This document shows positions 5,335 to 20,120 of a stretch of 64,000 bases of DNA, one piece after another (position 1 is the first letter of the stretch; the number at the start of each line of letters is the position of its first letter). Both the position numbers and the translations under genes were made by a program. The notes under the pieces were generated by a model, which saw nothing but the letters and a program-made list of their open reading frames with translations, had not been told where the DNA came from and ran no database searches. Source of the DNA: Desulfobacca sp. GTDB lineage: Bacteria > Desulfobacterota > Desulfobaccia > Desulfobaccales > Desulfobaccaceae. Location of the stretch: NCBI GenBank assembly GCA_020725545.1, contig DYEV01000030.1, positions 62,001 to 126,000 of the forward strand, written 5' to 3'.

Positions 5335-6645
5335 TTAGACATAGCGAAAGCGTTCCGCCACGGCCCGGGCGTGGAGGGGCAGACCCTCGGCTTCAGCCAT
5401 GAGAATGACCGCGTCCTTGAGGGATTCCAGGCCCTCTTTGGTCAAATGCTGAAAGGTCGGTTTTTTAAGGAAATCGTCGACCGAGAGGCCGGAAAACATC
5501 CGGGCTGTCTGGCCGGTGGGCAGGACGTGATTGGTGCCCGAGGCATAATCGCCCACGGGGACCGGGGCATAGCGTCCCAGAAAGATGGAACCCGCGTGGC
5601 GGATGCGCGGCAGGATTGCAAAAGGTTCCCGGGTGACAATTTGGAGGTGTTCCGGGGCATAGAGATTGACAAAATCCATGGCTTCGTCGAGATTCTGGGC
5701 CATGAGCACCGCCGAGTGATGGTTGATGGCATTGAGGAGGATCTCTCGCCGGGGCAGGCTTGGCAGCTCCTCTTTGATAAAGTCGATTACCTTATGGGCC
5801 AGAGGCTCCCATGTGGTGACCAACACTGCGGCAGCGTCCGGATCATGCTCCACCTGGGAAAGGAAGTCCAGGGCCACCATGCGGGCTTCGGCGGTCTCAT
5901 CGGCCAAAATCAGAGTTTCGCTGGGTCCCGCCGGATTATCGATGCCCACCTCCCCGAAGACCAGCAGCTTGGCCGCGGTGACGTATTTATTGCCAGGTCC
6001 GACGATTTTGTCAACCTTGGGTACCGTGGCGGTGCTGTAAGCCATGGAGGCCACGGCCCAAGGGCCGCCGATCTTAAAGATGCGGTGGGCGCCGGCCAGG
6101 TGTGCAGCTGCCAAAGTCGTCGCGTTGGCGGTCATCCCTTGATCCGGGGGAGTACAAGCAATGATTTCCCCGACTCCGGCTACGCGGGCGGGGATAATCG
6201 TCATGAGCACCGTGGAGGGATACTTGGCCAGCCCACCGGGAATATAACAGCCGACCCGATCCAAGGGTCGCAACAGCCGGCCCGCCAGGATCCCGGGCTG
6301 GACTTCAATGGCCCACATCTCCCGATCCAATTGCGCCCGGTGGAACTTTTCGATATTGCCGGCCGCAATCTTGAGGGCAGCCAGAAGTTTGGGGTCCAAA
6401 CTTTCATAGGCCGCCTTAATCTCCTCAGGTTTGGCCTCTAAATCGTTGGCGCTGATCTGGGCCTTAAACTGCCGGTGATACTCCAGGGTAATGCGGTCGC
6501 CGTATTGGCGGACATCTTGGACGATTTTGCGGATATCCTCAAAGACGGCGGACACATCCACCGCCGACCGCTTGACGATGGCCTCGCGACGCTCCAGCGT
6601 GAGACCGGCAACGGTTTCAACCATTAATTTTATCATGGTAGACAT
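5335..6645 (-). CDS. hisD: Histidinol dehydrogenase
   Basis: Catalyses the last two oxidations of histidine biosynthesis, histidinol to histidine, with two NAD and a zinc ion. The 436-residue length is typical. VDKIVGPGNKYV, DNPAGPSE, SQVEHDPDA (zinc-binding Gln and His), YAPEHLQ, VPVGDYASGTNHVLPT (zinc Asp) and the late LPLHARA (zinc His) are all present. The usual GGAQAIAALAYGT block reads GGPWAVASMAYST, a small departure. No other his genes lie nearby. The start is one of three closely spaced ATG codons. Confidence 0.95.
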   Translation of the reverse strand: MSTMIKLMVETVAGLTLERREAIVKRSAVDVSAVFEDIRKIVQDVRQYGDRITLEYHRQFKAQISANDLEAKPEEIKAAYESLDPKLLAALKIAAGNIEKFHRAQLDREMWAIEVQPGILAGRLLRPLDRVGCYIPGGLAKYPSTVLMTIIPARVAGVGEIIACTPPDQGMTANATTLAAAHLAGAHRIFKIGGPWAVASMAYSTATVPKVDKIVGPGNKYVTAAKLLVFGEVGIDNPAGPSETLILADETAEARMVALDFLSQVEHDPDAAAVLVTTWEPLAHKVIDFIKEELPSLPRREILLNAINHHSAVLMAQNLDEAMDFVNLYAPEHLQIVTREPFAILPRIRHAGSIFLGRYAPVPVGDYASGTNHVLPTGQTARMFSGLSVDDFLKKPTFQHLTKEGLESLKDAVILMAEAEGLPLHARAVAERFRYV

Positions 6646-8362: not shown

Positions 8363-9028
8363 CTACCCCCAGACAATGCCTGATTTCGTATATGGTTTGG
8401 TGTTCAGCCGCCGCAGGTTCTGTTGGGCCGGACCATAAGCAGGGTCGATCTTTACGGCCACCTGGTAGTGGGTCAAAGCCTCCTTGCGCTGGTCCCGATT
8501 TTCATAGAGTCCGCCCAGGATATTAAAGGCCTCCGGCCGGTGTGGGTCCACTAAAATGGCCTTATGGGCATAGACAAAAGCGGCGCTAAATTTCTTCTGG
8601 GCAATACTTTTTTGAGCCAGGCCGAGATACTCATCGTACGAGAAAGCCAGCGGGCCGCCCTCGGGCCGGTCCAGCGCCCGGCTGACGATCTCCCGTACCT
8701 CGGGGGGCTCGAAGGGTTTTTGCAGGAAATCCACCGCTCCCAATTGCATGGCCTCCAGGATCGCCTCCACCGTGCCATAGGCCGTAATAATGATGACCCT
8801 GGTCTGGGGGTAGCGCGCCGTCACCTGCCGCAGGACGGTCAGGCCATCCATGCCGGGCAGCCGTAGATCCAGGAGCATGGCGTCGTAGCGGCTGTCGCTC
8901 AGCTTCTGCAGGGCCTCCTCCCCTTGAAAGACTGCGTCCGCTTCGAGGCCAATGGCCTCTAAAGCGCCCTTCAGGGTGAGGCGGATATTGCGTTCGTCAT
9001 CCACGATCAATACTCGTGGTGTTGCCAT
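8363..9028 (-). CDS. Response regulator: receiver plus TPR output
   Basis: Residues 1-120 form a CheY-like receiver with VDDE, phospho-acceptor Asp in MLLDLRLPGMDG, T in IITAYG and K in LQKPFEPP. After a linker, residues about 135-205 look like two to three TPR-type helical repeats (AFVYAHKAILVDP, AFNILGGLYENRDQRKEALTHYQVAVKIDP). There is no DNA-binding domain, so output is probably through protein contact. It overlaps the sensor kinase gene by 32 bases and ends the potassium cluster. Confidence 0.88.
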   Translation of the reverse strand: MATPRVLIVDDERNIRLTLKGALEAIGLEADAVFQGEEALQKLSDSRYDAMLLDLRLPGMDGLTVLRQVTARYPQTRVIIITAYGTVEAILEAMQLGAVDFLQKPFEPPEVREIVSRALDRPEGGPLAFSYDEYLGLAQKSIAQKKFSAAFVYAHKAILVDPHRPEAFNILGGLYENRDQRKEALTHYQVAVKIDPAYGPAQQNLRRLNTKPYTKSGIVWG

Positions 9029-10880
9029 CGGTTTCTATCTCCTTGCTCTGGTCAGCCAGGGGCAGGGTGAAGGTAAAGGCGCTGCCCTGGCCAGGTTCCG
9101 ATTCCAACCAAATAACGCCCCGGTGAGCCCGGACGATCTCTTTGCTGATGGCCAGACCCAGGCCGCTGCCAGGAGTCTCCCCCTGATCAAGACGGACAAA
9201 TTTGTCAAAGATGCGCGACTGCATGTCCCAGGGTATACCGGGGCCGTTATCCTGGACGGTCAGATGGACCTTGGGGCCGAGCTGGGCGCCCCGCAGATGA
9301 ATATGACCGCCGGCCGGCGTAGAGCGCACTGCGTTGGCCAGCAGATTGACCAGGACCCAGACGATCTTGTGGGGATCGACCAGGACCTCCGGGAGATTTT
9401 CCGGGACCTCCAGAGATACGGCAATCCCCTTGGCTTCAGCCTGAGTTTTTATTACCATCCAGGCCTGCTGGCCAAGGAAGGCGGGGGCAACTGGCTCCAG
9501 GGCCAACTCCAATCTGCCTGCTTCAATTTTTGACAACTCCAACAGATCATCCACCAGAGCCTTAAGGCGCAGCACTTCTTCGTGGCAGATATCCAGCAAT
9601 TGCCGTTCCTGTTCGCTGAGCTTGGCCGCCGCTGATTCCTTGAGCATACTCACCGACATGCCGATACTGGTCAACGGCGTCCGCAGCTCGTGGGATGCGG
9701 TCATGACAAACTCGCTTTTTAACCGGTCCAACTCTTTCAGCCGGGTGACGTCCCGCAGAACCAGGACGGCGCCGGGGATGACCCCGGCCCGGGAATGTAT
9801 CGGCAGGATGGCTGTCTGGTAGTGCTGCACGACTTCCCCCTGTGACACTGTCAGAATATTTTCATCTGCCTCATAATGCGGTTCCTGACCGGTAGCGATG
9901 GCCCCTTGCAGAGACCGATAGATCGTTTCATCCCGCACCACTTCCAGGATATGTTTGCCCAGGGACGCAGCCGCCTCAACATGGAAGATGGCCGCGGCTT
10001 TGGGATTCATATTGGTAATGATGAGTTTCTCGTCCACCACCACCAACCCGTCATCCACACTCCGAATAATGGCGTCACTCTTGCGTTTTTCCGCCAGGAT
10101 CTGGTCAATGTCCAACTCATGAAAATGCTTTAATTTATTGGCCATGCTATTGAAGGCCGTGGCCAGGAGGGCCAATTCATCCCGGCCTTGCACCGGCACC
10201 TGGACGCCATAATTACCTTGGGCCAGGGAGGCCACAGCCTGGTTAATCTCGGTGACCGGCCGGGAGAGGCGCTGGGCCAGCATGACGCTGAAAGAAATCC
10301 CCCCAAGAATGGTCAGAGTCCCGATGATGGAGATGAACCAGACCGCCTGTTCGGCGATGCGACGGGCCCTCTTGCTGGCGGCAAACATCACTTCGTGATT
10401 GAGGTTGCGCAGCTTCAGACAGGCATCCCGCACGGTCCAGAATCGAGGCAGCACTTGATCGTGGTAACGGCTGGCCAGTCGCGTCCCATCGTCCCGACTG
10501 CCGAGGTGCAGCTGCTGGATTTCCTGGAGATAGAGCGTATAATTTTTCTCGATGGCCGCGACAATCTCCTGCTCCCCGGTGATGGTGACGTTGTCTTTGG
10601 CACGCCCCAGCCACATAAGAAAACTGACTTCGCTCTCCCGCATCTCTTTAAAGCCCAATTCGGGGAAATTCAGCAAAACCAGCAGCAGCCCAGAATCCTG
10701 CCGTTCGATGTCATTGATCATATTCTCGGCCGCCAGGGTGCTCAGGTAATTCTCCTGCAGGATGGCGTCGGAAGCCCGGCCCAGGCGTAACAGTAAAACG
10801 ATGCCCAGGATAAGAATCAGGGCCACAATAAACAGACTGGCGCCGAAGCCCAGGAGGATTTTGGCTCGCAAGGTTTTCAT
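8997..10880 (-). CDS. Membrane sensor histidine kinase (HAMP-PAS-HisKA-HATPase)
   Basis: 627 residues. TM1 is at about residues 8-30, a periplasmic helical sensor at about 31-175, and TM2 at about 178-200. HAMP, a PAS-like domain (about 265-380), HisKA with ASHELRTPL (phospho-His) and an HATPase domain (NLLANAV, DNGPGIP, GSGLGLAI) follow. The architecture is KinB/PhoR-like. Its position directly after ktrA and its overlap with the receiver-TPR gene suggest that it monitors potassium, turgor or membrane state; this is inference. The sensor region has a decayed copy next to kimA. Confidence 0.93.
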   Translation of the reverse strand: MKTLRAKILLGFGASLFIVALILILGIVLLLRLGRASDAILQENYLSTLAAENMINDIERQDSGLLLVLLNFPELGFKEMRESEVSFLMWLGRAKDNVTITGEQEIVAAIEKNYTLYLQEIQQLHLGSRDDGTRLASRYHDQVLPRFWTVRDACLKLRNLNHEVMFAASKRARRIAEQAVWFISIIGTLTILGGISFSVMLAQRLSRPVTEINQAVASLAQGNYGVQVPVQGRDELALLATAFNSMANKLKHFHELDIDQILAEKRKSDAIIRSVDDGLVVVDEKLIITNMNPKAAAIFHVEAAASLGKHILEVVRDETIYRSLQGAIATGQEPHYEADENILTVSQGEVVQHYQTAILPIHSRAGVIPGAVLVLRDVTRLKELDRLKSEFVMTASHELRTPLTSIGMSVSMLKESAAAKLSEQERQLLDICHEEVLRLKALVDDLLELSKIEAGRLELALEPVAPAFLGQQAWMVIKTQAEAKGIAVSLEVPENLPEVLVDPHKIVWVLVNLLANAVRSTPAGGHIHLRGAQLGPKVHLTVQDNGPGIPWDMQSRIFDKFVRLDQGETPGSGLGLAISKEIVRAHRGVIWLESEPGQGSAFTFTLPLADQSKEIETDGNTTSIDRG

Positions 10881-10952: not shown

Positions 10953-11618
10953 TCAATCAGACACTTTCTGTAGCTTGGCCAAATGTTCTTCCCGGCCGAT
11001 CATCACTAAAACATCACTGGGTTTGATCACGAAGCTGGGATCCGGCAGAAAGACGAACCGTTCCGGAATCAGTTCTTTGACGGCCAGGACAAAGACCCCG
11101 TATTTTTTTCGCAGTTCCAACTCCATGAGGGTCTTGCCGTAAAAACTATTGGGTGGGGCCACATCCATGACCCGGTAGCCGGCCTCCAAGGGTATATAAT
11201 CCAGGAGGTTGGGGTTGACAATCTGGGCCGCCAAGCGCCAGGCCGTCTCCCGTTCCGGGAAGATGACCTCCTGCACCCCCAGAGAGTGGAGGATGGCGGC
11301 GTGGTCTTCGCTGATTACCTTGGCCCGGATCATTTTGATGCCGATTTTCTTGAGATGCAGGGTACAGAGGATACTGGCTTCCAAGCTTTCCCCCAGGCTG
11401 ACCACCACTTCGTCAAAATCAGCGGTCACCACCTGTTTCAGGCTGGCATAATCCCGGGCATCCACCACCAGGGCCCGTTGGACGTCGTCAGCAATGCTAT
11501 AGACCAGGTTTTCGTCTCTGTCCAAGGCCAGCACTTCACAATTTCTGGCCAGTTCCCGAGCCAATTCCATGCCAAACTGGCCTAAGCCGATGACGCAGAT
11601 ATACTTCTTTTTTTTCAT
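10953..11618 (-). CDS. ktrA: K+ uptake regulatory subunit, single RCK (KtrA/TrkA-like)
   Basis: Cytoplasmic 221-residue subunit with an RCK_N Rossmann domain (CVIGLGQFGMELAREL, ALDRDENLV) and an RCK_C domain after about residue 140. It forms the nucleotide-binding ring that gates KtrB; RCK_C domains of this type are also known c-di-AMP binding sites. Only one RCK unit is present, so KtrA rather than the double-unit TrkA. The ATG overlaps the ktrB stop (ATGA), showing tight coupling. The track ORF's 38 extra residues run back into ktrB and are not used. Confidence 0.92.
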   Translation of the reverse strand: MKKKKYICVIGLGQFGMELARELARNCEVLALDRDENLVYSIADDVQRALVVDARDYASLKQVVTADFDEVVVSLGESLEASILCTLHLKKIGIKMIRAKVISEDHAAILHSLGVQEVIFPERETAWRLAAQIVNPNLLDYIPLEAGYRVMDVAPPNSFYGKTLMELELRKKYGVFVLAVKELIPERFVFLPDPSFVIKPSDVLVMIGREEHLAKLQKVSD

Positions 11619-13018
11619 CCGATCATAATCCTGGCTTTGGGATACCGTATGCTCACGTGCCGTTCCGGGATAATCCACATGGCCACGGTCAATGGTCCCA
11701 CCCGGCCGACAAACATGGTCAGAATAACCCACAGGCGACCGGCCACGGAGAGTTTCTCGGTGAGACCCGTGGACAGACCTACTGTGCCGAAGGCGGAAAT
11801 CTGTTCAAAAATGACATCATGCAGGCCGATGTCGGGATGGGTTTCGGTAAACAACAACAGGAAGATACCCAAGATGTTCCAGGCCGCAGCCAAGCGGATC
11901 AGAATGGTGTTGCGCCATAAAATTTCGGCGGGCACCTGCCGACCGGAGATATTCACCTCCCGGAAGCCTCGCAATTTGGAACGCATCTCCACCAGCCAGA
12001 TGGCAAAGGAAGTGGTCTTGATCCCCCCGGCGCACGACCCCGGCGATCCGCCGATGAACATGAGAAAGATGATGATCAGAATGGTTCCCAAGGGCAGAGC
12101 CCCGCAGTTCACCGTATTAAATCCTGCGGTCCGGGCCGTGACCGATTGAAACAGGGCCCCCATCAGTTTCTCCCCCCAACCCGTTTCCTCGGGAGTGAGG
12201 CCGAACACCAGGATTGCCAGCGCCCCACCGCTGATAAGGAAGATGGTCATTCTCCAGACGACCTTGGCGTGCGTGGACAAGACCCGTTGCGACAGCACCG
12301 TTCCATTTCTGTCTACCTTACTCGAGAGCCAACGCCAGGTCTCCAACAAGACCGCGTGGCCCAGGCCGCCGGTGACGATCAGGAGCATGATCATGAAGAG
12401 GATGACCGGATTATCCCGGATATCCATGAGGCTATTCCGATAGATGGAGAAGCCGGCGTTGCAGAAGGCGGAAATGGCATGGAAGACGGCGCTATAGAAC
12501 GATTGCCCCAGATCGCCGGTCCGGACCAGCAGGGCCAGAGCAATAACGACTATCCCCACCGCCTCGATAATCGCCGTGGTCAATAAGATCCGATAAAACT
12601 GGCGGCGGAAGTCTGAACCGATATCCTGCTGAAAGAAAGAATCGTGCAGCACCATCTGGGATTGCAGTGACAGGCGCCGCCCCAACATCTGAAAGGTCAG
12701 GGCGGCAAAGGTCATGACACCCAAGCCCCCGGTCTGGATCAACAGCAGGATAATGATCTGACCGAAAGGCGTGTAGGCCGTGCCGGTATCCACGACGATC
12801 AAACCGGTGACGCAGACTGCCGACGTGGCGGTAAACAGGGCGGTCAGATAACTCACCTGCCCGGCTTGATGGGCCCAAGGCAGCCACAAGAGCATGGACC
12901 CTGCGAAAATTACGCCGGCAAAGCCGCCGATCAGGAGGAATTGGGGCGATTTCAGAAAGGGCAGGACCTTTTTCGGCAAGGCTTTCTTGGCTTCGGAGGA
13001 TGGATAGGACACGTTCAT
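11615..13018 (-). CDS. ktrB: K+ translocating subunit (KtrB/TrkH)
   Basis: Inner-membrane K+ channel-like subunit of 467 residues built from four membrane-pore-membrane repeats. The four selectivity-filter segments are visible: TSAVCVTGL, SAFCNAGFS, TARTAGFNT and SAFGTVGLST, each with its conserved Gly. It pairs with the adjacent ktrA. It begins 57 bases after the kup stop, so all three K+ genes may share a transcript started at the kup riboswitch. Confidence 0.94.
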   Translation of the reverse strand: MNVSYPSSEAKKALPKKVLPFLKSPQFLLIGGFAGVIFAGSMLLWLPWAHQAGQVSYLTALFTATSAVCVTGLIVVDTGTAYTPFGQIIILLLIQTGGLGVMTFAALTFQMLGRRLSLQSQMVLHDSFFQQDIGSDFRRQFYRILLTTAIIEAVGIVVIALALLVRTGDLGQSFYSAVFHAISAFCNAGFSIYRNSLMDIRDNPVILFMIMLLIVTGGLGHAVLLETWRWLSSKVDRNGTVLSQRVLSTHAKVVWRMTIFLISGGALAILVFGLTPEETGWGEKLMGALFQSVTARTAGFNTVNCGALPLGTILIIIFLMFIGGSPGSCAGGIKTTSFAIWLVEMRSKLRGFREVNISGRQVPAEILWRNTILIRLAAAWNILGIFLLLFTETHPDIGLHDVIFEQISAFGTVGLSTGLTEKLSVAGRLWVILTMFVGRVGPLTVAMWIIPERHVSIRYPKARIMIG

Positions 13019-13074: not shown

Positions 13075-15039
13075 TTAAATTTCCACCTGGCTGCCCAACT
13101 CTACTACCTGCCCAGGCGGGATGCCGAAAAAGGTGGAGACGTTCCAGGCGTTACGGCTCAGGAAGGCAAAGAGGGCCTTGCGCCAGGCGGCCATCTTGGT
13201 GGGGCCGCTGGTGAGCAAAGACTCCCGCCCCAGATAAAAAGAGGTGGCGTAAATATCAATGTCCAGGCCCTGTTCATTCAACATTTCGATAATTTCAGGC
13301 ACTCGGGGCGTTTCCATAAATCCATAGGAGGCCACCACCCGGTAGAAGCCATACCCTTTGTCGGTCACGTCCAACTTTTGCTCTCTGGGCACATGCGGCG
13401 TATCGGTGGAGACGATGGAGAGGATAAAGACCCGTTCCGGCAGGGCATCAGTGTGTTTCAACAGGTGCAGCAGGACGATGGGGGTGCCGAGGGGGGAGAC
13501 GGACAGAAAGAAGGCCGTGCCGGGGGTGCGCACCAATTTATAGGTGGCGATGTCATACATCAGAACATCCAGCGGCACCTGGGCTTCCTCAAAGCGCTTG
13601 CGCAACGCGGCCCGCCCGTCCCGCCAGGTGACCATGATGGTAAAGAGCACTACAGCCACACTGACGGCAAACCAACCGCCGTCGATAAACTTCAGTAAGT
13701 TGGCACTGAAAAAAGAAAAATCAAAAAAGAAAAAGAGGCCCGCCAGGGGGAGGGCCTGCCAGAGGGGCCAGTTCCAATTATAACGGCAGATATAAAAATA
13801 AATAATGGTGCTGATGCACATGGTGCCAGTGACCGCGATGCCATAGGCCGCAGCCAGGTTGCTGGATTCTTTAAAAGCCAACGCCAGACCCAGGCAGCCG
13901 ATCATCATAACGCTGTTGATCCAGGGCAGATAAATCTGCCCCTTGGTCTCCCCCGAGGTGTGGATAATGCGCAGGCGGGGGGCGTAACCGATCTGGATGG
14001 CCTGCTGCATCAGGGAAAAGACCCCGGAGATCATGGCCTGGGAGGCAATGACCGTGGCAGTGGTGGCCAGGGCCACCATGGGATAGAGGAGAAAGCGGGG
14101 CACCAGACCATAGAACGGGTGGACCGCGGCCTGAGGTTGCTCCAAAAGCAGAGCCGTCTGGCCCAGATAATTGAGCAGCAGGGCCGGAAAGACCAACACC
14201 AGCCAGGAAAAGCGGATGGGCCCCCGGCCAAAATGACCCATGTCGGCGTACAAGGCCTCGCAGCCGGTGATGCACAGGACCACCGCGCCCAGGACGAGGA
14301 CGCCGTGCAAACGATTCTCAATAAAAAAAATAATGGCGTGGCGGGGATCAAAGGATTGCAGAATGATGGGCGTGCGGATGATTTGGGCCAGCCCCAGGAG
14401 GGCCAAGGACACAAACCAGACGATCATGATGGGGCCGAAGACCTTGCCGATGCGCTCCGTACCTTTGCTCTGCACCAGAAACAGTCCCAGGAGAACGCCG
14501 CAGGCCAGCGGCAGGACAAAGGGCTCGGCCGCGTGGGTGGCCACATTCAGGCCTTCGATGGCCGAGAGCACCGAGATGACCGGAGTGATCAGGCCTTCGC
14601 CGCAGAGCAGGGCCGCCCCAAAGATGGCCAAGAGCATGAGGCGGTTCACAACTTTCGGGTTCACCCGCTCCCGGCCTTTGCTCAGGAACAGGGCCGCCAG
14701 GGCATAAATCCCGCCCTCGCCGTGGTTGTCGGCCCGCAGAATGAAGATGACATATTTTACCGTCACCACCATGGTCAAAGACCAGAAGATCAGGGACATG
14801 ACCCCCAGGATGTTGCTGGTGCTGATGATCATGGCATGGGGGCCGTGAAAACATTCCTTGACCGTATACAACGGGCTGGTGCCGATGTCGCCATAGACCA
14901 CCCCCAAAGCCCCCAAGGCCAGAAGCAGTTTCTTAGAAGGGGCGGATTGCGCGTTGGGCTCGGTCTGAGATGGAGAAGCAGGCGGAGGTGGTGCGGATTG
15001 AGGCGAGGCTTCGGCCTCAGAAGTGGAAGACGAACTCAT
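13075..15039 (-). CDS. kup: KUP-family potassium uptake protein
   Basis: Proton-coupled K+ importer with about twelve transmembrane segments and a C-terminal cytoplasmic domain. Diagnostic blocks include GALGVVYGDIGTSPLYTVKE near the first helix, LCGEGLITPVISVLSAIEGL, and CEALYADMGHFG. I use the ATG after GGAGGGGGGAGT, giving 654 residues. The first 40 are Ser/Pro/Ala-rich and likely disordered. A ydaO-type c-di-AMP riboswitch sits directly upstream, so high c-di-AMP should turn the gene off. Confidence 0.95.
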   Translation of the reverse strand: MSSSSTSEAEASPQSAPPPPASPSQTEPNAQSAPSKKLLLALGALGVVYGDIGTSPLYTVKECFHGPHAMIISTSNILGVMSLIFWSLTMVVTVKYVIFILRADNHGEGGIYALAALFLSKGRERVNPKVVNRLMLLAIFGAALLCGEGLITPVISVLSAIEGLNVATHAAEPFVLPLACGVLLGLFLVQSKGTERIGKVFGPIMIVWFVSLALLGLAQIIRTPIILQSFDPRHAIIFFIENRLHGVLVLGAVVLCITGCEALYADMGHFGRGPIRFSWLVLVFPALLLNYLGQTALLLEQPQAAVHPFYGLVPRFLLYPMVALATTATVIASQAMISGVFSLMQQAIQIGYAPRLRIIHTSGETKGQIYLPWINSVMMIGCLGLALAFKESSNLAAAYGIAVTGTMCISTIIYFYICRYNWNWPLWQALPLAGLFFFFDFSFFSANLLKFIDGGWFAVSVAVVLFTIMVTWRDGRAALRKRFEEAQVPLDVLMYDIATYKLVRTPGTAFFLSVSPLGTPIVLLHLLKHTDALPERVFILSIVSTDTPHVPREQKLDVTDKGYGFYRVVASYGFMETPRVPEIIEMLNEQGLDIDIYATSFYLGRESLLTSGPTKMAAWRKALFAFLSRNAWNVSTFFGIPPGQVVELGSQVEI

Positions 15040-15094: not shown

Positions 15095-15232
15095 GGAAGG
15101 TCTTTCCCCATCGACGCCGACGAGGTTAGCTGCAGGGCTCGGACCGATGAGGTTGTCCTACGCCCGCTGGCGATGCGCCCCTAATGCCCGGGTCCCCCGT
15201 TTCCGCGACTAGTGCAGAATTAGGCATTGGGA
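15095..15232 (-). promoter_or_regulatory. ydaO/yuaA (c-di-AMP) riboswitch upstream of kup
   Basis: The minus strand carries hallmark ydaO segments: CGGGGGACCCGGG, then GTCCGAGCCCTGCAGCTAACCTCG, with the invariant CAGCTAACCTCGT block followed by GGCGTCGATGGGGAAAGA. The class senses c-di-AMP and usually controls K+ transport and osmotic genes, which fits kup. Boundaries are approximate. Confidence 0.88.
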
Positions 15233-15288
15233 AATGTTTACTCTATTTTTGCGGCTTCGGCAAGCTTTGGGCGGCATTTTATTGGAAC

Positions 15289-15690
15289 TTATTGATCCCC
15301 AACGATGAGCAAGAGGTCGGCCGCCTCAGCAATATACCGGGCATATTCCTTTTTAAGATCACGAAGAATGTCTTCTTCTCCGGGAACGGTAACATTATCT
15401 TTGGCGCGGCCTAGCCACTGCCAGAAAACCGCCTCCTGGGAATGAAACTCCTGCAGCCATGGTTCTTGAAAACCCAACAAGAGCAGGAGAATTGACGAAT
15501 CCTGCCTCTCCAAGGCATCTATCAGGTGCTCTGCTGCCATGATACTGCGCTAATTGTCCCGCAGAATGGCTTCCGAAGAGCGCCCCAGCCTGAGAAGGGC
15601 CAGGGCTGACCAGGTCAGGACCAGAGGTATCAAAAGGAGACTGGGAGCATACCCCAAAAGGATCTTATTGCGAAACGTTTTTATTGTCAT
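15289..15690 (-). pseudogene. Decayed sensor-kinase gene, N-terminal sensor only
   Basis: An ATG overlapping the kimA stop (ATGA) opens a frame reading MTIKTFRNKILLG and on through a first membrane helix to ILRDN. A TAG follows where the intact kinase has Tyr (ENYLS). After the stop the same frame continues with AAEHLIDALERQDS and WLGRAKDNVT, closely matching the intact kinase, then ends after about 83 codons at another stop. HAMP, PAS and kinase domains are missing. The reading is of a paralogue once coupled to kimA, now truncated and nonsense-mutated. Confidence 0.75.
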
Positions 15691-17543
15691 GGTATGAGAT
15701 TACCGGTTTTACCCGGATAGGACATATTAAAGCGGAATTGGGGGAAGAGCCGGGGCAAACGCATGAGATTGAAGACCATGACGCCGATGGCCAGGCGATC
15801 CAACCAGGAACTCATGGGCCAACCAAAGGTTACTGTCACGGTCCGGTCGGGAAATTCATATTCAACCACTTTGAGCAAGCCGATCATGTCATGGAATAGG
15901 CCTGCCTTGGTTAGGACGAAACGGAAGTGATTGGGGGCTAACTTGGCCGGGGCCTTCTCTCTGGGATTATAAAAAGATATGAAGACCTCATTATCTCGAA
16001 CCGTTTGCAATGTCTCCTCTTTAGGACGGCGAAACACGAGGTGTAACTCAGGGGCATCTGATTGCGACAGGTATAGGACCAGGTCCATCTGGGCGTCGGT
16101 CTTTTGCCGCTCCATGATTTCTGGGGCTCTTTTTTGGGCCATCAGGATACCAGCCAAGAGTACCACCAGCGTTACCGAGGCCCATAATAAGGTGCCGTGT
16201 GGCTTGTCCAGGGCTAGGAAAATAAAGCAACTCACAAGAATTACCCAAAGAACCAGAGTGCCTAGCCGGCTGGTAAAGTAGGCGATTACCTCTTTAGTCC
16301 CTTTGGAATAACGGTAAATGAGCAGGGCTCCCAAGTTGATACAAAAACTGGCCACCAAGCCGATGGCATACATATCCGCCAGGATTTGCTGACTGCCATG
16401 GGTAATGAGAATAATTATGGAAAAAAACAGGGCGCTGATCAGGTGAATGCGGTACAAGGATTGGCGTTTATTGGTAGCAATGAGCCAGAAAAAACCATAC
16501 CGGTGGGCTACTCTCTCCAGGAGTTCGCTGGAGGCGACAAAGGCTGTATTGACCGCCATGGTGAGAGTAAAACTGGCCAGAGTTGCCACCAGAATGCCAA
16601 AGGGAACCCCATTAAGCAGAGAGGCATAGTGAGTAATGAGGTCTCCTTCATGCTGCTTAAAATCAATGGGTGCCGAAAGAACCAGAGCGGCAATTAAGGG
16701 AGTGCTGATGCCCACCGTAAGAGCCAGGAACCAATAAGCCCGGTGGATCTCCCGCCAGCTCCGAAGCAGACCGGCTGTTTGCAATACAGACTCAACGCCG
16801 GAATAGGCCAGGATACAAAAAGCAATGTTGGAGACCAGATTGCCATAATTCGTCAACCAGGAATCGGTGGTTAACTCCTTGGCGGCATAATGCACCGATT
16901 CTTTCAGGCGTGTTAATGATGGTGCATCCAGGGCAAGGATTCCCGAGGCAATGAGATTAACCATGATAAATGCGGCAAAGATGAAAATGCCGAACGTGAA
17001 GCGGGCATTTTCCCGAATCCCCAAAATATTCAAACCGGCCACCAGCCAGATAATGGACAGCACCAGGCTAATTGTTAACGGGAAGGAAGCAGACAGTCCG
17101 GGAAAAAACGAGAGGGCGTTGGCAACGGCGCTCACCGCCGAGATGCAGGCCGTGAGAATATAATCCACCATAATGGAAGACACGGCGATGAAAGACACTA
17201 CCGGTCCCAGGACGAGGTACGAAAATGAATAGACGCCCCCACCGATGAGGTTGTGATGCTCCAGGATCTCGGCGATTTCAGTGAGTCTGGTAGTCAGAAA
17301 CCGCACCAACAGGCTGGTTAGTGCTATGAAGACAATGGCGCCCACGCCAATAAAACGATAGGATTCTGCCGGCACATAGAAGATGGAGGTAAACTCATCC
17401 ATCAACGTAATAACTGCCACGGCCAGCCAGGTAAGCCAGACTCGACCCCCCTCAGAAAAGGAGAGAAGGCCTGGCCGGCGCAGGAGATAAAAAAAGAGGA
17501 CCAGCAGACCTAGGTTGAGAACCGTTAAGATGGCAAATTTCAT
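15687..17543 (-). CDS. kimA: APC-superfamily permease, KimA-like potassium importer
   Basis: 618 residues with about twelve transmembrane helices and a roughly 130-residue C-terminal soluble domain. N-terminal features include the helix-break region HHNLIGGGVYSFSYLVLGP. The family is amino-acid permease-like, but B. subtilis KimA (YdaO), the K+ importer behind the original ydaO riboswitch, has this layout. Here too a ydaO riboswitch is immediately upstream, and the gene sits beside kup and ktrAB. Potassium as substrate is therefore a context inference; an amino-acid substrate is the alternative. The ATG follows AAAGGAGC. The longer track ORF runs into the leader RNA. Confidence 0.8.
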   Translation of the reverse strand: MKFAILTVLNLGLLVLFFYLLRRPGLLSFSEGGRVWLTWLAVAVITLMDEFTSIFYVPAESYRFIGVGAIVFIALTSLLVRFLTTRLTEIAEILEHHNLIGGGVYSFSYLVLGPVVSFIAVSSIMVDYILTACISAVSAVANALSFFPGLSASFPLTISLVLSIIWLVAGLNILGIRENARFTFGIFIFAAFIMVNLIASGILALDAPSLTRLKESVHYAAKELTTDSWLTNYGNLVSNIAFCILAYSGVESVLQTAGLLRSWREIHRAYWFLALTVGISTPLIAALVLSAPIDFKQHEGDLITHYASLLNGVPFGILVATLASFTLTMAVNTAFVASSELLERVAHRYGFFWLIATNKRQSLYRIHLISALFFSIIILITHGSQQILADMYAIGLVASFCINLGALLIYRYSKGTKEVIAYFTSRLGTLVLWVILVSCFIFLALDKPHGTLLWASVTLVVLLAGILMAQKRAPEIMERQKTDAQMDLVLYLSQSDAPELHLVFRRPKEETLQTVRDNEVFISFYNPREKAPAKLAPNHFRFVLTKAGLFHDMIGLLKVVEYEFPDRTVTVTFGWPMSSWLDRLAIGVMVFNLMRLPRLFPQFRFNMSYPGKTGNLIP

Positions 17544-17644: not shown

Positions 17645-17772
17645 GGAGCGGTTGCCCTTCCAAATGCCTACGAGGTTAGCTGTCGGGCTCGGGCTTGGAA
17701 GTGCCCTATCCATAGTGGAATTCGCCCCAAAAACCTGGGTCCCCCGCACCCGTGGCGAGGCACGGGTTTCGG
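17645..17772 (-). promoter_or_regulatory. ydaO/yuaA (c-di-AMP) riboswitch upstream of kimA
   Basis: The minus strand begins with an ACCCGTG/CACGGGT hairpin, then GCGGGGGACCCAGG, TTGGGGCGAATTCC, ATAGGGCACTTCC and CCGAGCCCGACAGCTAACCTCG, then TAGGC. These are the ydaO consensus elements in order, including the GGGGNGAA block. It is the better match of the two in this window. Boundaries are approximate. Confidence 0.93.
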
Positions 17773-17789
17773 CTGCACATATAAATTTT

Positions 17790-19304: not shown

Positions 19305-20120
19305 TCAGGCTGCCAGGCGCCGCTTCAACTCTGCCAGGTCCTGCTCCAAGACCCGGAGGCGCGACGCTAAGTCAAAGTGCTCCTCTTTCCTGACGACGAC
19401 TCCAAAGAGATTATCCAGGCGTTTGTTGGCACCCTCGATGAGCCTGTTCAAATCGGCCCGCACCCCATCACTACGACCGGTCAATTCTTCCCGGACGGCG
19501 TCGATGCGTTTGTTCGTCTCGTCAATACGGCTAGTCAGCTTCTCCCGGACGGAGTCGATGCGGGCAGTCAGCTCTTCTCGAAAAGCGTCAATGCGTTTGT
19601 TGGTTTCATCAATGCGACCGGATAACTCCTCCCGAACGCTGTCAATGCGTACGGACAACTCCTCCCGGAGGGTGTCGATGCGATTATTGGTTTCATCAAT
19701 GCGATCGGATAACTCCTCCCGGACGCTGTCGATGCGTGCGGACAACTTTTCCCGGACGGCGTCGATGCGATTATTGGTTTCATCAATGCGACCAGATAAC
19801 TCCTCCCGGACGGTGTCGATGCGACCGGATAACTCCTCTCGGACGGTGTCGATGCGACCGGATAACTCCTCCCGGACGCTGTCGATGCGACCGGATAACT
19901 CCTCTCGGACGGTGTCGATGCGTTTGTTGGTCTCGTCGATGCGGCGGCTCTGATCAACCAAATGCGTGTTCATGTCGTTAAGACGTTGGTGCACATCATC
20001 CAGACGCTGGCTCACCAACTGTAGTTTGGTGTCAATTTGACCCAACTCCTGCCGCATTACTGCCAATTCCGGCAGGATGACTTCTTTCAGGGCGCCAAGC
20101 ACCGCTTCTTTGATTTCCAT
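19305..20120 (-). CDS. Tandem-repeat coiled-coil protein
   Basis: 271 residues, no signal peptide and no membrane helix. The centre, about residues 58-215, is built from two interleaved units: an 11-residue unit RIDxVREELSG and a 7-residue unit RIDETNK. Both lengths are coiled-coil periods (hendecad and heptad). The N-terminus (MEIKEAVLGALKE...) and C-terminus (ASRLRVLEQDLAELKRRL) are non-repetitive helices. I do not recognise a specific family; similar proteins are often annotated only as coiled-coil or DUF-type. The ATG follows GGAGG. Confidence 0.8.
   Translation of the reverse strand: MEIKEAVLGALKEVILPELAVMRQELGQIDTKLQLVSQRLDDVHQRLNDMNTHLVDQSRRIDETNKRIDTVREELSGRIDSVREELSGRIDTVREELSGRIDTVREELSGRIDETNNRIDAVREKLSARIDSVREELSDRIDETNNRIDTLREELSVRIDSVREELSGRIDETNKRIDAFREELTARIDSVREKLTSRIDETNKRIDAVREELTGRSDGVRADLNRLIEGANKRLDNLFGVVVRKEEHFDLASRLRVLEQDLAELKRRLAA
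19462..19935 (-). repeat. 33-bp and 21-bp tandem repeats within the coiled-coil gene
   Basis: Near-identical 33-bp units of the type GACCGGATAACTCCTCTCGG + ACGGTGTCGATGC occur at least four times in tandem around 19795-19925. Further diverged copies are spaced by 21-bp units. They encode the 11- and 7-residue protein repeats. DNA-level similarity suggests recent expansion or gene conversion. Confidence 0.85.

Follow-up and report, generated by a model that had tools for sequence, protein, structure and literature searches.

A response regulator with a predicted TPR output module encoded beside potassium uptake genes in Desulfobacca sp. and other bacteria

A potassium uptake cluster that ends in a response regulator gene

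The window analyzed here, a 64,000-nucleotide stretch of Desulfobacca sp. DNA, carries a minus-strand gene cluster in the order KimA-like transporter, relic of a kinase sensor, Kup, KtrB, KtrA, histidine kinase and a response regulator whose C-terminal half is predicted to consist of TPR repeats, hereafter RR-TPR. The RR-TPR gene is the terminal gene of the kup-ktrB-ktrA-kinase-regulator operon. It starts with ATG and, according to the list of open reading frames, overlaps the kinase gene by 32 bp. The features of the cluster are as follows.

8363..9028, minus strand: RR-TPR response regulator gene, 221 amino acids (ORF list, Pfam, AlphaFold)
8366..8404, minus strand: C-terminal tail of RR-TPR, PYTKSGIVWG, with the motif I-x-[LWFM]-[GDE] (family conservation)
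8405..8638, minus strand: TPR module, residues 131-208, with full repeats at 131-164 and 165-198 and a capping helix at 199-208 (TPR_2/TPR_19, model pLDDT 91, Foldseek)
8672..9016, minus strand: receiver domain, residues 5-119, with phospho-acceptor D54 (Response_reg 1.9e-29, residue conservation)
8997..10880, minus strand: partner histidine kinase, 627 amino acids, extracytoplasmic sensor followed by HAMP-PAS-HisKA-HATPase (Pfam; the family recurs beside RR-TPR)
10953..11618, minus strand: KtrA gating-ring subunit (RCK_N and RCK_C), start at 11618 (TrkA_N, TrkA_C; PDB KtrC/KtrA 2.6e-38)
11615..13018, minus strand: KtrB potassium channel subunit (TrkH family; PDB KtrB 2.8e-71)
13075..15039, minus strand: Kup potassium transporter, probable start at 15039 (K_trans 9e-182)
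15100..15236, minus strand: c-di-AMP riboswitch (ydaO/yuaA leader) before kup (Rfam RF00379, 81.2 bits, E 4.5e-18)
15307..15684, minus strand: degraded duplicate of the kinase sensor domain, interrupted by a TAG (sequence comparison, frame reading)
15687..17543, minus strand: KimA-like potassium transporter (AA_permease_2), probable start at 17543 (Pfam; PDB)
17650..17784, minus strand: c-di-AMP riboswitch before the KimA-like gene (Rfam RF00379, 94.3 bits, E 1e-21)

The longest open reading frames of kup and the KimA-like gene overlap the two riboswitches, and so their true starts should lie downstream, probably at the positions given above. The presence of two c-di-AMP riboswitches within one potassium gene cluster is itself of note, and the genome also encodes a diadenylate cyclase. 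The ktrB and ktrA genes overlap by 4 bp and encode a TrkH-family channel, the sole TrkH-family protein of this genome, and a single-RCK ring subunit with a C domain, the combination that defines KtrAB. The only PDB match of the KimA-like protein is KimA (6e-7); its orthologue comes directly after the RR-TPR gene at another locus (L121). The partner kinase has two membrane segments, as read from its sequence, and the relic between kup and the KimA-like gene is 48% identical to kinase residues 1-126, interrupted by one stop. No KdpD domain was found in the genome, the partner kinase included. Elsewhere in the window (19305-20120, minus strand), we observed a gene for a coiled protein with many near-identical repeats of the 'RIDxVREELSGRIDETNKR' type.

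The receiver of RR-TPR matches the Response_reg profile at residues 6-115 (1.9e-29, Pfam). In the 20 homologues first aligned, D10, D11, D54 and K104 are identical throughout, and position 82 is Thr in 19 and Ser in one. With its acidic pair, phospho-acceptor Asp, Thr/Ser and Lys placed in a predicted (beta-alpha)5 fold, the protein is a response regulator whose receiver is intact, as the initial annotation had read it.

That annotation had also taken the C-terminal half for TPR repeats and had found no DNA-binding or enzymatic domain in the protein. TPR repeats are 34-residue helix-turn-helix units with consensus positions 4, 7, 8, 11, 20, 24, 27 and 32. Pfam places TPR_2 at residues 165-197 (1.3e-5) and TPR_19 at 142-206 (1.2e-3); the single-repeat matches fall slightly under the gathering scores, so that Pfam alone would be borderline, and we therefore used structure as a second test. 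The AlphaFold model of the full protein, with six homologues as input, shows the (beta-alpha)5 receiver followed by five antiparallel helices at 131-208 (mean pLDDT 88.7), and phmmer against the PDB aligned residues 140-208 with consensus TPR proteins. Because the receiver dominates a Foldseek search with the full protein, which leaves the output half uninformative, the C-terminal 99 amino acids were also modelled alone (pLDDT 91.3, pTM 0.83). The best 50 Foldseek matches listed for this model are all TPR or TPR-like designed repeat proteins, none of them DNA-binding. Thus, profile matches that are below cut-off but consistent, least variation at the structural positions, and the predicted fold together identify a TPR module of about 2.5 repeats. 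Neither the Pfam profiles nor the Foldseek search with the C-terminus revealed a DNA-binding or enzymatic domain, and an output of the OmpR, NarL/FixJ, NtrC or LytTR type is ruled out by the profiles and the TPR fold. Both readings of the initial annotation therefore stand, and prediction of the full structure, which it had proposed as a check, returned no known DNA-binding fold.

An RR-TPR family associated with potassium uptake genes

One contig scan and whole-genome searches of the window's phylum yielded 39 full-length RR-TPR proteins, the window's own included. They come from Thermodesulfobacteriota, with one each from Synergistota, Planctomycetota, Elusimicrobia and Cloacimonadota; the protein from Desulforhabdus is 77% identical. 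The distribution is patchy, with RR-TPR in at least 13 of 395 genomes of the phylum and at least 21 of 292 genomes of the order searched, both counts being lower bounds because a limited number of candidates was scored per genome. None was found in three congeners (1e-35) or in three other genomes of the family. In a receiver tree the RR-TPR receivers lie apart from the potassium-linked NtrC regulators and form nearly one clade, with one sequence (L019) outside it on a long branch. Kup of the window and of Desulforhabdus are 81% identical, whereas HisD of the two is only 44% identical, a difference suggesting that the cluster has moved from one lineage to another. The Desulforhabdus locus also has an Rfam SECIS_4 match upstream of kup (L016, 1322-1359, minus strand), possibly marking a selenoprotein gene nearby.

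A single family of histidine kinase lies beside RR-TPR at nearly all loci and is its most constant neighbour. Of the 39 RR-TPR genes, 35 have genes for Kup, KtrAB, TrkAH, KdpABC or a KimA-like protein no more than about 8 kb away, including those from Synergistota, Planctomycetota and Elusimicrobia as well as Thermodesulfobacteriota. This compares with 6 of 75 control loci from the same scan, in which only the receiver is matched. All six of these controls are NtrC-type regulators in kdp operons. The difference is significant by Fisher's test (p 1e-18), a value that serves as a guide only and overstates independence, since related loci are not independent. Three of the exceptions (L097, L029 and L169) lie on short or ending contigs, and L114 alone truly lacks potassium genes, with none visible in 11 kb. 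At most Trk loci, the gene right after RR-TPR encodes a subunit with TrkA_N only. We also observed that TrkA can be split, just 3' of RR-TPR, into one protein with TrkA_N but without TrkA_C and another with both domains (L115, 9073-10166; L117, 7539-8746; and many of L156-L171). By its full-length REC-TPR homology, neighbouring kinase and potassium uptake genes, the window's protein belongs to this potassium-linked family, and the link to potassium uptake is far stronger than could be known when the initial annotation proposed it from the window alone.

The TPR module is conserved in a way that does not follow the transporter. Three residues at concave positions of the module, N169, E176 and R207, are identical in 36, 38 and 38 of the 39 proteins, respectively, whichever transporter adjoins, and presumably depart from the TPR consensus. 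Between L108, a kdp locus, and L109, a trk/ktr locus, the TPR modules are 73% identical. A groove that stays constant beside very different transporters argues for one common partner rather than a particular channel subunit, and this partner could be the kinase or another potassium regulator. The tail motif I-x-[LWFM]-[GDE] occurs in 32 of the 39 proteins, where shuffled tails would give 0.7; more speculatively, the groove may bind this tail of RR-TPR itself, holding the protein autoinhibited or as a dimer.

Transcriptional control and loci without RR-TPR

Transporter transcription is controlled separately in two classes of locus. In the first, which includes the window, this falls to the c-di-AMP riboswitch; RF00379 also precedes the potassium genes of the NtrC-less, Kup-led operons L016, L098 and L099. 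In the second, an NtrC regulator linked to potassium genes lies upstream, as at 21 RR-TPR loci. These neighbours and the NtrC proteins of kdp operons form one clade (support 100/99), which takes in 21 of the 22 NtrC neighbours and leaves out that of L114. At 13 of the 21 NtrC-bearing loci, a sigma-54-like site scoring 10 or more of 12 falls in the 150 bp that precede the kinase start, compared with 16 of 1688 background bins. Rfam found no c-di-AMP riboswitch before the RR-TPR operon at any NtrC-bearing locus; at L019, one precedes a separate operon on the opposite strand. All seven distinct sigma-54 activators examined from the window's genome, its four best matches among them, fall outside the potassium-linked NtrC clade. 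L113 and L017 are among a few loci where neither form of control appears in the DNA covered. Because both classes have dedicated transcriptional controls and RR-TPR has no DNA-binding domain, RR-TPR is most likely a non-transcriptional arm.

The congener G003 has riboswitch-kup-ktrB-ktrA without the kinase or RR-TPR, and two others have riboswitch-kup (G001) and riboswitch-kimA-riboswitch-kup (G002), both without RR-TPR. Since transporters are kept in its absence, the kinase/RR-TPR pair looks like an addition to them, and a role for RR-TPR as an obligate transporter subunit is ruled out. A second G003 cluster, NtrC-kup-KdpD(short)-kinase (L179), includes a kinase of the RR-TPR-partner family, here with NtrC alone and no RR-TPR. 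At L175, which holds a close relative of the system, a receiver-only regulator of 130 amino acids (5655-6047, minus strand) takes RR-TPR's place between the kinase and ktrB, about 10 bp before ktrB, which indicates that the TPR module is not always required. Three loci also have short proteins with KdpD and Usp domains but no kinase domain, beside a separate HAMP-PAS-type kinase (L019, 6790-7968; L118, 10136-11320; L179, 10234-11385), a split of KdpD sensing that resembles DVU3336/DVU3335 of Desulfovibrio vulgaris.

Function of RR-TPR and its relation to known systems

We consider it probable that RR-TPR is the output of a two-component system for potassium homeostasis and forms a post-transcriptional accessory arm that acts by protein contact. 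The membrane kinase would sense an extracytoplasmic or membrane signal, presumably tied to potassium or osmotic state, and, judging from the operon coupling and the intact motifs, would phosphorylate D54 of RR-TPR. The receiver switch would then expose or orient the small C-terminal TPR module, allowing it to bind another protein and so to adjust potassium uptake outside transcription, while transcription of the transporters would be run separately, by c-di-AMP riboswitches in the window and other Kup operons and by the potassium-linked NtrC at sigma-54 sites elsewhere. The partner would be a factor that all these cells share, be it the kinase itself, a further potassium regulator or some general factor, and not a single channel subunit. 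Output by protein-protein contact, as first suggested in the initial annotation, is thus supported by the predicted TPR fold and the absence of a predicted DNA-binding domain. Against this explanation, a module of 2.5 repeats is small for a TPR domain, L175 has a receiver-only regulator and L114 has RR-TPR with no potassium genes in view. An indirect effect on transcription, with the kinase or a transcription factor as the thing that RR-TPR modulates, is another possibility.

The first alternative is direct gating: once phosphorylated, RR-TPR would attach to a transporter or its gating subunit (KtrA/KtrB, TrkA/TrkH or Kup) and thereby open or close it. This would fit the operonic coupling at 35 of the 39 loci and the TrkA_N-only subunit gene just downstream at most Trk loci, and there is precedent in the sensor kinase KdpD, which phosphorylates KdpB (PMC11018627). 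We nevertheless think it unlikely, because Kup, KtrAB, TrkAH, the P-type ATPase KdpFABC and the KimA-like transporter are structurally unrelated, yet the groove beside them is nearly invariant, and because the three congeners retain their transporters and riboswitches without the pair. Contact with the channel subunits, the initial annotation's suggestion as to targets, is disfavoured on the same grounds. Equally doubtful overall is a role for RR-TPR as a phosphate sink that competes with the potassium-linked NtrC, or as a TPR-bound modulator of the kinase's kinase/phosphatase activity, with NtrC-driven transcription as the final output. In its favour, many loci have a single kinase between the NtrC gene and RR-TPR, no neighbour is more constant than this kinase, whose family occurs with NtrC alone in a congener, and the regulator at L175 consists of a receiver only. 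In NtrC-bearing species this account is nearly as good as the one we favor, but it is weaker for the window, where the sigma-54 activators that match best include no potassium-linked NtrC with which to compete, and a sink has no need of a conserved TPR groove and tail.

TPR modules can work in transcription complexes, and RR-TPR might therefore control transcription indirectly, through RNA polymerase, an anti-terminator or a DNA-binding protein. Since both classes of locus already have transcriptional controls of their own and no DNA-binding fold was predicted, this seems quite improbable. Least credible of all is that RR-TPR is an unrelated orphan regulator found near potassium genes by chance; the lone L114 would fit this idea, but it is contradicted by the neighbourhood counts in RR-TPR and control loci.

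Like KdpD/KdpE, the system we propose would place potassium uptake under two-component control encoded with the transporter, and some RR-TPR loci share with KdpDE systems a truncated KdpD sensor (KdpD and Usp domains) and kdpABC. KdpE, however, is an OmpR-type DNA-binding regulator, whereas RR-TPR ends in TPR and its partner kinase has a HAMP-PAS architecture of its own. Membership in the KdpDE family is ruled out, as the kinase has no KdpD sensor domain, the genome encodes none and the output is TPR rather than winged helix. The kdp genes DVU3334-DVU3336 of D. vulgaris encode a KdpD and UspA protein, a separate kinase and a regulator of their own kdp operon (PMC3333781). Their split sensing looks like that of the NtrC-bearing RR-TPR relatives; however, their regulator binds DNA, the portion of that study considered here describes no TPR regulator, and the window's cluster lacks NtrC. 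Control of potassium uptake by c-di-AMP acts on the ydaO riboswitch, KtrA/TrkA, Kup, KimA and the Usp domain of KdpD (PMC10243994), a transporter set that recurs in the window, where the riboswitch precedes two of them. The window differs in that its c-di-AMP-controlled operons would also receive a phosphorylation signal, from the kinase/RR-TPR pair.

The initial annotation had regarded such a coupling as new, which holds in part. Fusions of receiver and TPR in one chain, REC-PAS-TPR and TPR-TPR-TPR-REC, are known from an archaeal census, although with another domain order or extra domains and, in the portion of the census considered, no stated link to potassium (PMC5847659). The novelty therefore lies not in the fusion but in a family dedicated to potassium, which appears undescribed: nothing direct was found in the open-access literature searched. 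As a more tentative proposal, RR-TPR may be the first recognized member of a response-regulator family that sets potassium uptake post-translationally. Its phosphorylated TPR module would bind potassium transporters or their shared regulator, so that a fast phosphorelay would complement transcriptional control by c-di-AMP riboswitches or NtrC/sigma-54.

Known two-component control of potassium uptake acts mainly through transcription, as in KdpDE, and the serine phosphorylation of KdpB by KdpD is a recent exception in which control is post-translational (PMC11018627). A conserved kinase/RR-TPR pair that recurs with five types of transporter, in cells with c-di-AMP riboswitches or NtrC already in charge of transcription, suggests that potassium homeostasis has a signalling layer of its own at the level of proteins. 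With its 221 amino acids, three conserved groove residues and short tail motif, RR-TPR offers a defined and testable target for what may be a little-noticed, non-genetic control of potassium uptake in bacteria.
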